Shown: one piece after another, positions 8,334 to 11,972 of the stretch | How the letters are laid out: every line of letters starts with the position of its first letter | Numbering within the stretch: the first letter of the stretch is position 1 | NCBI GenBank assembly: GCA_023256615.1 | Contig: JAGDXO010000004.1 | Coordinates: 2,488 to 47,723, forward strand | Source: Thermoplasmata archaeon | GTDB lineage: Archaea > Thermoplasmatota > Thermoplasmata > Thermoplasmatales > GCA-001856825 | Reading direction: 5' to 3' | Length of the DNA stretch: 45,236 nt | Position numbers and translations under genes: made by a program | The notes under the pieces: model-generated | Seen by the model: the letters and a program-made list of their open reading frames with translations, nothing else | What the model was told of the DNA's origin: nothing | Database searches by the model: none

Positions 8334-9908
8334 TTATTTTTCCTTTGTTAAGAAACTTCTTTTAGTTTCCTTTCTAACCTCTGCGGTAAGTCGCCCTAAT
8401 TCCTCCTTATTTCTGTTCACGAATTTGAAGAATGACTCTACTGATGGATTCACTTTTATTATCTTGTCGGAAATTTCCCAACTCATTCTCCTCAGATCAA
8501 AGTGAGCCTGAGGAGTTGATCTCAGCTCGACCAAGTAAATAATCTCTCTTAAATTTGCCGTGATTATTACCGGATATCTGTAACCGAATGGCACAACATA
8601 TTGGGCTTTAAATGGATTAATTGACACCAAATTTCTGAATAATTTTCTGGCCCTTTCCATTCCTGATCTGTAGATTCTGTTTAAATTTTCATCCATAGCT
8701 ATTGTTGGAGGTACATCGTATCCATACTCCGTTGTTAGCAATTTTCTTTGAATTGATAACAGTCTGTGTCTTTGAAGCTCTCTGAAAGCGCCGAAATTAA
8801 GCATTATTTCAAATGTATAATTTACATGCTCTAGGCTCCTATCTGGTTTTTGTCTCCTGTTGGTTCTCAATTCAGAAATTGAGCTTAAAATATCCCTTCT
8901 CTCTTCACTTGATAACTCGTCCATTTTCCTTTTAATTGATGGGAAATGTCCATCTACCCTTTCAAAATAATAAGACGCGAGTATTGAGGAAGATACTTTA
9001 TCATCGTCGAGATAATTAAGAAGACGGACATTTTCGCCCTCTTCTTTTTCAAATTCAAATTTGCGAGGAATAAATTTTTTAATTTTTTCAAGATAACGGA
9101 TATTTGAAATCCCGTGCGTCGATTCTACGGAGTCAATTAGTTTTGGAAAAACCTGTCTCAATTCATTATAAAGTTCATTGTACAACCACAAGGCTTCCTC
9201 TGAATCTGTCGACTTTAGCCTCTCCAGTAAATGTGCGAACGCCCTCGCATTTCCGCTAATACCTACGTTCGTTAGAGTTGAGGAGGGAAGGAGAAATCTT
9301 GCTTCATCAAGTGCTCGGCTCCTTATTGAATTTTCATAAGATTTTAAAAGAATCTTATCTGTTTCGTTGTCTTTTCCAAGTTCAATTTTCTTCCCATCGG
9401 GATTTTTAAATTCTGCATTTTCTATAGGATATAATTCTTTTAATTTGATAATAAGTTCATCCTTCATCCTGACATAGTCATCAAATGTTTCATCACAGTA
9501 TTGAATGTAATCAGAAGTTAAATTCAAGGGCATTCCTATTCTTTCCGGATCTGCATACAGGTATTTTCCATTTATTTTTTCATTATAAGATACGTATCTG
9601 GAACTCTTTTCTAGGTATGATAATCCAATCCTTCCTTCCTCAATTATTTTTGATATAATGTTGCTCACGTTCTGAATTCCTACCTGTGCTGTTACTAATT
9701 CTGAAATAGATTCGTCTCCATACTCCAGAAAAATTAACTCATAAAACCTTTCACCTTTATTCTCATCCTTTGAGAACTCCTTCTCCCAGAGCTTTCTTAA
9801 ATCCAGCTCTCCCGCCCTGCTGTATCTGGACATTAGGGCCCCTCTGTCTATCATTTTTGGGAGATTTATGACAAACACATCCCTGTCTTTATTGGAGAAA
9901 TAATCCAT
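8334..9908 (-). CDS. tandem ThyX-like protein (two flavin-dependent thymidylate synthase domains)
   Basis: 524 residues, about twice the usual ThyX length. Domain 1 (about 10-290) has an ELVTAQVGIQNVSN element, then GRIGLSYLEKSSRY ending at Tyr105: the S-x-x-E-x-S-x-R-Y half of the ThyX signature with the RHR half lost. ARFLLPSS and SGNARAFAHLLERL follow. Domain 2 (about 360-510) has RELQRHRLLSI around residues 380-382, the RHR half, but its later positions read QRKLLTTEYGY instead of E-x-S-x-R-Y; QYVVPF and ANLREIIYLVELR match the dUMP-site region. ThyX makes dTMP from dUMP with methylenetetrahydrofolate, FAD and NADPH as a homotetramer whose active sites span subunits. This protein may be a pseudo-dimeric version or a divergent paralogue with another role. 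A single family hit would miss the split signature. Confidence 0.85.
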   Translation of the reverse strand: MDYFSNKDRDVFVINLPKMIDRGALMSRYSRAGELDLRKLWEKEFSKDENKGERFYELIFLEYGDESISELVTAQVGIQNVSNIISKIIEEGRIGLSYLEKSSRYVSYNEKINGKYLYADPERIGMPLNLTSDYIQYCDETFDDYVRMKDELIIKLKELYPIENAEFKNPDGKKIELGKDNETDKILLKSYENSIRSRALDEARFLLPSSTLTNVGISGNARAFAHLLERLKSTDSEEALWLYNELYNELRQVFPKLIDSVESTHGISNIRYLEKIKKFIPRKFEFEKEEGENVRLLNYLDDDKVSSSILASYYFERVDGHFPSIKRKMDELSSEERRDILSSISELRTNRRQKPDRSLEHVNYTFEIMLNFGAFRELQRHRLLSIQRKLLTTEYGYDVPPTIAMDENLNRIYRSGMERARKLFRNLVSINPFKAQYVVPFGYRYPVIITANLREIIYLVELRSTPQAHFDLRRMSWEISDKIIKVNPSVESFFKFVNRNKEELGRLTAEVRKETKRSFLTKEK

Positions 9909-10007: not shown

Positions 10008-11972
10008 ATGCGTTTTAATATTCCACAGGATCAGATAGAACTCCTTAAAGAAAGGGTTCTTACTTCGAGGAAAATAGGGTCAGACGAAAATCTCGTTTTA
10101 CACGGTGGCGGAAATACAAGTGTAAAAATCAGCATCTTTGATCATACTGGGAAGGAGGTATACGCACTTTTTGTTAAAGGATCTGGATCTGACTTATCAT
10201 CTATAAATGAGGATGGTTTTACTGCACTGAGAATGAGTGAGCTTCTGGAAGCAAAGAAAATAAAGGATATGAGTGATATTGATATGGTTTCATATCTCAG
10301 GAAATGCATGCTTGACCCTGATCAGGCTTCTCCTTCTGTAGAAACATTCTTGCATGCCTTTATACCTTTCAGATACGTTGACCATAGCCATGCGGATTTC
10401 ATCCTCTCAATTACAAATACTGACCTAGATGATAGAAAGATTTCAGACATTTTTAATGGAAGAGTTTTAATTCTTCCATATACCCCTCCTGGATTCGACC
10501 TCGCAAAAGCTTTTGGAAAACTTATAGAGGAATATAATCTGGAAGATTATGATGGAGCTATACTGAGAAACCATGGTCTCATTACCTGGGGGAATACAGC
10601 AGAGGAAAGTTATAGAAAACATATTGGATTGACTTCAATCGCAGAAAAATACGTTAGGCAAAAATGGAATGGCATACCAGAAGGAAAAGAATTATCTAAT
10701 TCAAAGGAAATTATGATTTCATTACTTCCAAAAATAAGAGGTATTTTAAGCAAGAATAAAAAGAAAATATTGAATTGGGATAAAAGCCCCGAGATAATCG
10801 GATATTCTATGCTGGATATGGCAAAGGAGATGTCAACGCTTGGCCCTGCTACACCCGATATGTTAATAAGGACTAAAATGGATTATTTATTCGTAGAGGA
10901 TATAAATGATTTGGAGGGACAAATAAATGAATATGTATCAAGATACGAGGAGGAATTTAAAAGCTATATTGGTTCATCATATCCTATGCACGATCCATAT
11001 CCCTCTGTGATATTGATAAGTGGGATAGGCTTGATCACAGCTGCTTCCTCCAAGAAGGAGGCGCTCATCATAAGGGATTTGGCGCTTCATACTTTCAGGG
11101 TAACGCATTCTGCGAGTTTTATAGCAAAGAATAAATTCATTGGAAGAAAAGATGCATTCCTTATGGAATATTGGTCATTAGAGGAGGCTAAGCTGAAAAA
11201 GAAGAAGGAACTGCCTCTCCAGGGATATATAGGTTTGGTAACGGGGGCTGCGAGCGGAATAGGTAAGGCAACATTCTTAAGATTCCTGGAAGAAGGTATA
11301 ACGGCAATAGGCGGTGACATAAACGAGAAGATTCTGGAATTCAATGAAAAATTTAAATACACGGGGTTAGGCATTAAAATGAATATTTCAGATGAGAGTT
11401 CCGTTAAGGAAGCAGTTGAATCAATTATACTTAATTATGGTGGAATAGATGTTGTTTTTAATAATGCGGGATATCTTCATCCTTCTAACCTGGAAGAGGT
11501 AGAACTATCTGATATGCTGAAGCATATTAATGTAAATGCGATAGGGACCTTCTTAGTTACCAGAGAAACGTTCAAGGTTATGAAGAAACAGAAGATGGGT
11601 GGAAATTACATTTTTAACATAACAAAAAATCTTACGAATCCTGGAGCTGGAATGGCATCATATGGTTCAACAAAGGCCTTTGCGGCACAATTATCAAGAT
11701 ATGTGACTATTGAAGGCGGAAAATACGGTATAAGAAGCAATATTGTTAATCCAGATAAGATATTCAGAGATTCGGCAATATGGGAAAATGGAGTCCTTGA
11801 GAACAGGGCGAGATCAAAAGGGATTTCGGTGGAAGAATACAAGAAGGGAAATCTGCTGCATATCGAAGTTCTGCCTGAACATGTTGCAAATGTTGTTGTT
11901 GAACTAATAAAGGATAATATATTTGGAGCGACAACAGGGGCAATGATACCTATTGATGGAGGAATTCAATGA
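10008..11972 (+). CDS. bifunctional class II aldolase / short-chain dehydrogenase (RhaD-like fusion)
   Basis: 654 residues with two domains. Residues 1 to about 380 form a class II aldolase/adducin domain with GGGNTS, metal-binding DHSHAD and NHGLITWG. Residues about 400-654 form a short-chain dehydrogenase with nucleotide motif TGAASGIG, NNAG and the catalytic Y-x-x-x-K in SYGSTK. The usual catalytic Ser 13 residues before the Tyr is a Thr here (NITKN). In the family the aldolase half splits a sugar 1-phosphate such as rhamnulose 1-phosphate into dihydroxyacetone phosphate and lactaldehyde, and the SDR half oxidises or reduces the aldehyde product. No rhamnose isomerase or kinase is nearby, so the sugar is uncertain. 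Its TGA abuts the stop of the convergent next gene in the palindrome TGATCA. Confidence 0.88.
   Translation: MRFNIPQDQIELLKERVLTSRKIGSDENLVLHGGGNTSVKISIFDHTGKEVYALFVKGSGSDLSSINEDGFTALRMSELLEAKKIKDMSDIDMVSYLRKCMLDPDQASPSVETFLHAFIPFRYVDHSHADFILSITNTDLDDRKISDIFNGRVLILPYTPPGFDLAKAFGKLIEEYNLEDYDGAILRNHGLITWGNTAEESYRKHIGLTSIAEKYVRQKWNGIPEGKELSNSKEIMISLLPKIRGILSKNKKKILNWDKSPEIIGYSMLDMAKEMSTLGPATPDMLIRTKMDYLFVEDINDLEGQINEYVSRYEEEFKSYIGSSYPMHDPYPSVILISGIGLITAASSKKEALIIRDLALHTFRVTHSASFIAKNKFIGRKDAFLMEYWSLEEAKLKKKKELPLQGYIGLVTGAASGIGKATFLRFLEEGITAIGGDINEKILEFNEKFKYTGLGIKMNISDESSVKEAVESIILNYGGIDVVFNNAGYLHPSNLEEVELSDMLKHINVNAIGTFLVTRETFKVMKKQKMGGNYIFNITKNLTNPGAGMASYGSTKAFAAQLSRYVTIEGGKYGIRSNIVNPDKIFRDSAIWENGVLENRARSKGISVEEYKKGNLLHIEVLPEHVANVVVELIKDNIFGATTGAMIPIDGGIQ

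Follow-up and report, generated by a model that had tools for sequence, protein, structure and literature searches.

Tandem ThyX proteins of archaea and large phages divide the conserved residues of the thymidylate synthase site between two halves

The canonical flavin-dependent thymidylate synthase ThyX (FDTS; PF02511), represented by TM0449 of Thermotoga maritima and by the enzymes of Mycobacterium tuberculosis and Helicobacter pylori, is a homotetramer with four active sites and four molecules of flavin adenine dinucleotide (FAD). In M. tuberculosis ThyX, one active site is built by three subunits: subunit A contributes Arg95-His96-Arg97 as FAD contacts and Arg199 for deoxyuridine monophosphate (dUMP), subunit B contributes Ser71 and Arg190, both for FAD, and subunit C provides the dUMP contacts Arg87, Ser105 and Arg107 together with Tyr108 as a lid (PMC6514825, section 3.1). 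A "domain-duplicated ThyX" of Chloroflexi was noted in 2009 as uncharacterised (Valas and Bourne 2009, PMC3224940), and the part of that paper concerned with it gives no residue analysis, mechanism or archaeal and phage distribution. Here, we describe a tandem ThyX protein encoded on a 45,236-nucleotide stretch of a Thermoplasmata archaeon (GCA_023256615.1, contig JAGDXO010000004.1, positions 2,488 to 47,723; hereafter, the window). Judged from homology and from the distribution of its conserved residues, this protein is very probably a fused and specialised pair of ThyX domains that acts as a flavin-dependent thymidylate synthase with two composite sites per two chains. That ThyX domains can be duplicated has thus been known since the Chloroflexi report; the split and complementary site is the new part, and we found no account of a split ThyX site in the open-licence literature.

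Two ThyX domains in one chain

The gene is an open reading frame (ORF) of 524 amino acids (aa) on the minus strand, running from position 9908 to 8334. An earlier note on this DNA had read from it a tandem ThyX-like protein without naming a strand; the assignment is added here. The gene and its two halves are as follows.

8334..9908, minus strand: tandem thyX gene, 524 aa (ORF; Pfam Thy1 with E=7.6e-42 in two stretches; AlphaFold; Foldseek)
9060..9908, minus strand: N half, residues 1-283, ThyX domain with subunit-B and subunit-C type residues and without RHR (hhalign)
8337..9059, minus strand: C half, residues 284-524, ThyX domain with subunit-A type residues and without ExSxRY (hhalign)

The tandem protein is a member of the Thy1 superfamily with the ThyX fold. 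The Pfam profile Thy1 (PF02511) matched the whole protein in two stretches with 143.7 bits against a gathering score of 24.8, and each half taken separately also scored above the Pfam cut-off. Aligned to canonical ThyX with hhalign, the N half reached a probability of 97.7% (E=1.8e-12) and the C half one of 99.3% (E=8e-21). An AlphaFold model of the single chain, based on 74 aligned sequences, had a predicted local distance difference test (pLDDT) value of 90.4 and a predicted template modelling (pTM) score of 0.88 over the whole chain, values at which the relation of the two halves to each other is confidently predicted as fixed. With this model, Foldseek retrieved the ThyX structures of T. 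maritima, M. tuberculosis, Thermus thermophilus and Corynebacterium glutamicum at a probability of 1.00 and with target-normalised template modelling scores up to 0.72. All solved structures matched by the sequence search were single-domain ThyX proteins of 216-270 aa. The tandem protein therefore resembles canonical ThyX in fold and Thy1 profile, and differs from it in having two fused domains instead of one.

A second difference concerns the ThyX signature RHRxxSxxExSxRY, which is never contiguous in one domain and is split in the window protein as well as in its relatives. The earlier note had placed EKSSRY at residues 100-105 and RHRLLS at about 380-385. Both motifs are there, the former at its exact position on the 524-aa chain and the latter at exactly 380-385, and their loss from the opposite half is as complementary as had been claimed, with no RHR in residues 1-283 and no E-x-S-x-R-Y in residues 284-524. 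This split is not due to chance. Among 108 aligned tandem proteins (74 archaeal and 34 distant ones, the latter comprising three from other Thermoplasmata families and 31 viral ones), on which all residue counts given here are based, E100, S102, R104, R380, H381 and R382 were found in 108 and Y105 in 105. The view that both halves keep the later Leu-Pro and Asn-x-Arg regions needs qualification. Leu-Pro is present in the N half, whereas the C half has Val-Val-Pro instead (AQYVVPF). Asn-x-Arg does occur in both (N220-A-R222 and N452-L-R454), but only the N-half copy is well conserved (R222 in 105/108, R454 in 71/108).

Residue partition and the predicted composite site

Residue equivalences between the tandem protein and canonical ThyX were fixed by half-by-half profile alignments, with which the alignment to the M. 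tuberculosis structure (3gwc) agrees.

9708..9710, minus strand: S67, equivalent to M. tuberculosis Ser71, FAD contact of subunit B (alignment to 3gwc; Ser in 107/108)
9594..9611, minus strand: E100-K-S102-S-R104-Y105, equivalent to the M. tuberculosis loop with Ser105, Arg107 and Tyr108, dUMP contacts and lid of subunit C (E, S and R in 108/108, Y in 105/108)
9297..9299, minus strand: R204 of the R-x-x-L-P motif in the N half (Arg in 108/108)
9243..9251, minus strand: N220-A-R222, equivalent to the M. tuberculosis N-x-Arg190 motif, FAD contact of subunit B (R222 in 105/108)
8763..8771, minus strand: R380-H381-R382, the RHR motif, FAD-binding by homology, subunit-A type (108/108)
8601..8603, minus strand: Q436 in place of the canonical R-x-x-L-P Arg, C-half counterpart of R204 (Gln in 105/108)
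8502..8522, minus strand: R463-S-T-P-Q-A-H469, R463 being equivalent to M. tuberculosis Arg199 and T. maritima Arg174, which activates dUMP, subunit-A type (R463 in 107/108, H469 in 103/108; alignment to M. tuberculosis ThyX)

For a composite site, the published subunit map leads to a strict prediction: one half should hold every subunit-A residue, and the other every residue of subunits B and C. The conserved pattern matches it. Conservation of the A-type residues, RHR and the Arg199 equivalent, is limited to the C half; in the N half, the positions of the first two RHR letters are variable and the Arg199 position is mostly Leu or Met. Conversely, the intact B-type pair Ser71/Arg190 and the C-type residues Ser105, Arg107 and Tyr108 are conserved in the N half only. 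At the Ser71 position, the C half has R357 in 74/74 archaeal proteins and various residues in the rest, and its ExSxRY loop is lost. Once the halves are pooled, nearly all FAD and dUMP contacts of canonical ThyX are found in the tandem protein: every residue of the published map is present except Arg87, which is replaced by N83.

How the halves could cooperate follows a scheme in which two tandem chains would together form a pseudo-tetramer with the shape of the ThyX homotetramer. In D2 symmetry, subunit A would correspond to the C half of chain 1, B to the N half of chain 1, C to the N half of chain 2 and D to the C half of chain 2 (or with the roles of B and C swapped). Acting as subunit A, the C half of one chain would then hold FAD with RHR (380-382) and activate dUMP with R463, while the N half of one chain would supply the FAD contacts S67 and R222 and that of the other chain S102 and R104 for dUMP as well as the Y105 lid. 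The fourth subunit, the second C half, would again have the two N halves as its B and C partners, giving a second complete site. If, in contrast, an N half took the place of subunit A, C halves would fill the B and C positions, and the resulting site, lacking RHR, Ser71, Ser105, Arg107 and Tyr108, is predicted to be dead. Given D2 symmetry and the residue partition, only a C half in the role of subunit A would yield complete sites. The expected outcome is two complete and two dead sites, and two FAD, per two chains, that is, two predicted sites per four domains where canonical ThyX has four. Such an enzyme would convert dUMP to deoxythymidine monophosphate (dTMP) by means of a one-carbon donor.

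With the exception of the residual R454, the conserved residues fit the D2 prediction exactly. We regard this fit as the strongest evidence for a composite site; it is independent of the predicted model. The quaternary structure, the ligand binding and the activity outlined above are inferred. The fit also speaks for the proposal in the earlier note of a fused pseudo-dimer with a composite site assembled from both halves, as the conserved residues partition in the way that the subunit map predicts. One amendment is needed: a single chain would be insufficient. Since each site would require halves from two chains, two tandem chains paired as a dimer are expected to form the functional unit.

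Canonical motifs have been lost from each half, and one could therefore suppose that just one half plays a catalytic or structural part in the usual sense while its partner is a decayed copy, i.e., degeneration instead of division of labour. However, neither half holds a complete site, yet both contain near-invariant residues over 108 proteins, and the split is identical in archaea and phages, which makes decay a very unlikely explanation. With a division of labour between the halves, tandem ThyX would constitute a clean natural test of how redundant sites are lost in a fused oligomer, one in which the subunit assignment of the active-site residues has been fixed by evolution alone.

Thymidylate supply and alternative functions

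Thymidylate synthesis is essential for DNA. The earlier note had proposed to look for thyA or a canonical thyX elsewhere in the genome; such a gene, together with a model in which neither composite site can bind FAD or dUMP, would speak against thymidylate synthase activity. Neither thyA nor a second thyX was found in the window's genome, which is 84% complete. Nor did thyA turn up in any of 117 genomes from the order or in the nine genomes, most of them Nitrososphaeria, behind the loci of relatives. In the same nine genomes, the tandem protein is the sole Thy1 protein, the two Thy1 matches being the two halves of one ORF. A thymidine kinase (PF00265) was not found in the window's genome, while serine hydroxymethyltransferase, which commonly supplies the one-carbon unit, is encoded there. 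These gene inventories suggest that the organism probably has no thymidylate synthase other than the tandem protein. Ammonia-oxidising archaea such as Nitrosopumilus maritimus, a strain outside the genomes searched, grow in defined inorganic medium and hence must make thymidylate. In the jumbo phage Tunturi_5 (L182, 1-1939), tandem thyX lies directly after a gene for deoxycytidine monophosphate (dCMP) deaminase, the step that yields dUMP.

For a thaumarchaeal ThyX-MsrB fusion (A0A075GM99), the lack of Ser88 was taken to preclude dTMP synthesis, and a role as flavin electron relay was proposed (PMC6211008). In five Nitrosopumilaceae loci (L124, L135, L137, L140, L142), tandem thyX is followed on the same strand by msrB, whose start lies no more than about 50 bases further downstream (SelR match of the msrB in L142: E=1.8e-51). 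Therefore, the ThyX part of the published fusion is probably a tandem ThyX. In tandem proteins, the serine judged missing is carried by the N half, and by analogy the "missing" Ser88 of the fusion may sit in its N half as well. This undercuts the claim that the thaumarchaeal ThyX-like protein cannot make thymidylate for want of one serine.

These data bear on an alternative raised by the earlier note, a new flavin enzyme. In the form considered here, such an enzyme would have the ThyX scaffold but use another nucleotide or another substrate and be no thymidylate synthase. The long divergence of the tandem protein from canonical ThyX, its score under the NCBIfam thyX equivalog cut-off and the flavin electron relay proposed for the ThyX-MsrB fusion would fit such a function, and a ThyX-like homologue with a different substrate is known in PolB, described as an unusual uridine monophosphate (UMP) C-5 methylase. 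On the other hand, all dUMP and FAD contacts of the published map bar Arg87 are kept between the halves, the genomes searched contain no other recognisable thymidylate synthase, the phage tandem gene adjoins that of dCMP deaminase, and the absence of Ser88 on which the relay argument turned is just what is expected when a C half is viewed alone. Given the kept residues and the lack of another thymidylate synthase, a new flavin function appears unneeded, and we consider it improbable.

Some observations nevertheless weigh against a thymidylate synthase with composite sites. With the NCBIfam equivalog for thyX, TIGR02170, the window protein scored 82.7 bits, just below the cut-off of 87.9; because of this score and of the non-contiguous signature, we file the tandem protein as a ThyX variant and not as canonical ThyX. 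At 84% completeness, a thyA or thyX could have been missed in this one genome. The C half retains the Arg190 equivalent as R454 (71/108 overall, 61/74 archaeal). Finally, Arg87, a dUMP contact in M. tuberculosis, is kept by neither half: the N half has N83 at this position and the C half F372, where most relatives carry F or Y.

Distribution and origin of the tandem proteins

The tandem protein belongs to a widespread subfamily and is not unique to the organism of the window. A scan with the alignment yielded 282 related stretches, of which the best 80 were kept, while a single-protein scan of the genome contigs gave none; these best 80 of the 282 came from Thermoplasmata and Nitrososphaeria. 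Relatives in the order (class Thermoplasmata) included Thermoplasma, Acidiplasma, Ferroplasmaceae and Cuniculiplasma records. Of the 106 genomes that the order-wide search with P0001 matched at all, 84 had relatives of the long tandem type, and these belong to families f1 and f3; in families f2, f4, f32 and f33 the matches were typical of a single ThyX domain. Within one order, single-domain canonical ThyX and tandem ThyX thus replace each other between families, and in family f15 one genome has canonical ThyX (G011) and another the tandem form (G033). Tandem proteins were also found in three Thermoplasmata genomes of other families (L143-L145) and on 31 viral contigs (L146-L176).

The same motif placement was seen in the phage isolates Tunturi_5, Vibrio Yong MS32 and Microcystis Ma-LMM01 (loci L182-L184). 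Altogether, the split is conserved in 111 relatives: the 74 archaeal and 34 distant proteins (three Thermoplasmata, 31 viral) plus the three phage isolates. Phage "thymidylate synthases" of 461-518 aa (Ma-LMM01 gp020, Tunturi_5 gp50 and those of Vibrio Yong phages) show the division of the tandem protein: ERSTRY or EASTRY belongs to the N half, RHR to the C half. They share about 24-27% identity with a viral relative over the matched part and are annotated only as thymidylate synthase or hypothetical protein; in a fold search, the Ma-LMM01 protein aligned over nearly the whole tandem model. Several tandem ThyX proteins of large phages and viral contigs are annotated merely as hypothetical proteins. 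The domain-duplicated ThyX of Chloroflexi, likened here by its description, is probably a member of the same subfamily (PMC3224940).

An ORF produced by sequencing, assembly or gene merging, or a pseudogene, has practically no chance of being the explanation. We found no evidence supporting it, and it is refuted by the occurrence of the same architecture with open frames in 84 genomes of the order, in 80 named loci and in isolated phages.

In a tree of the halves, N halves and C halves each lay on one side of a branch (support 100/96 and 100/99); the tree is unrooted, its canonical set is archaeal only and some viral branches are long. This separation fits one ancient fusion. We consider it likely that tandem ThyX is an ancient subfamily of single origin, found in Thermoplasmata, in ammonia-oxidising archaea and in large phages. 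Under this reading, a strict, symmetry-dictated division of labour between an FAD-holding and a dUMP-holding half followed the fusion, half of the sites were abandoned, and those archaea have no other thymidylate synthase. In whole archaeal groups, and in large phages, thymidylate synthesis appears to rely on a fused ThyX with an active site shared by two non-equivalent domains.

In one relative (L050, genome G075), a TAA lies inside the match near the C-terminal end; the ORF read there is 515 aa long, and the protein may be slightly shorter. Inspection by eye of the genes next to tandem thyX in the window revealed no link to nucleotide metabolism; several of them recur mainly beside the tandem gene of the closest relatives. 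An ORF of 654 aa at window positions 10008-11972 appears, by eye, to be a fusion of a class II aldolase domain with a short-chain dehydrogenase, and homologues of it occur near tandem thyX in 14 of the 80 loci.
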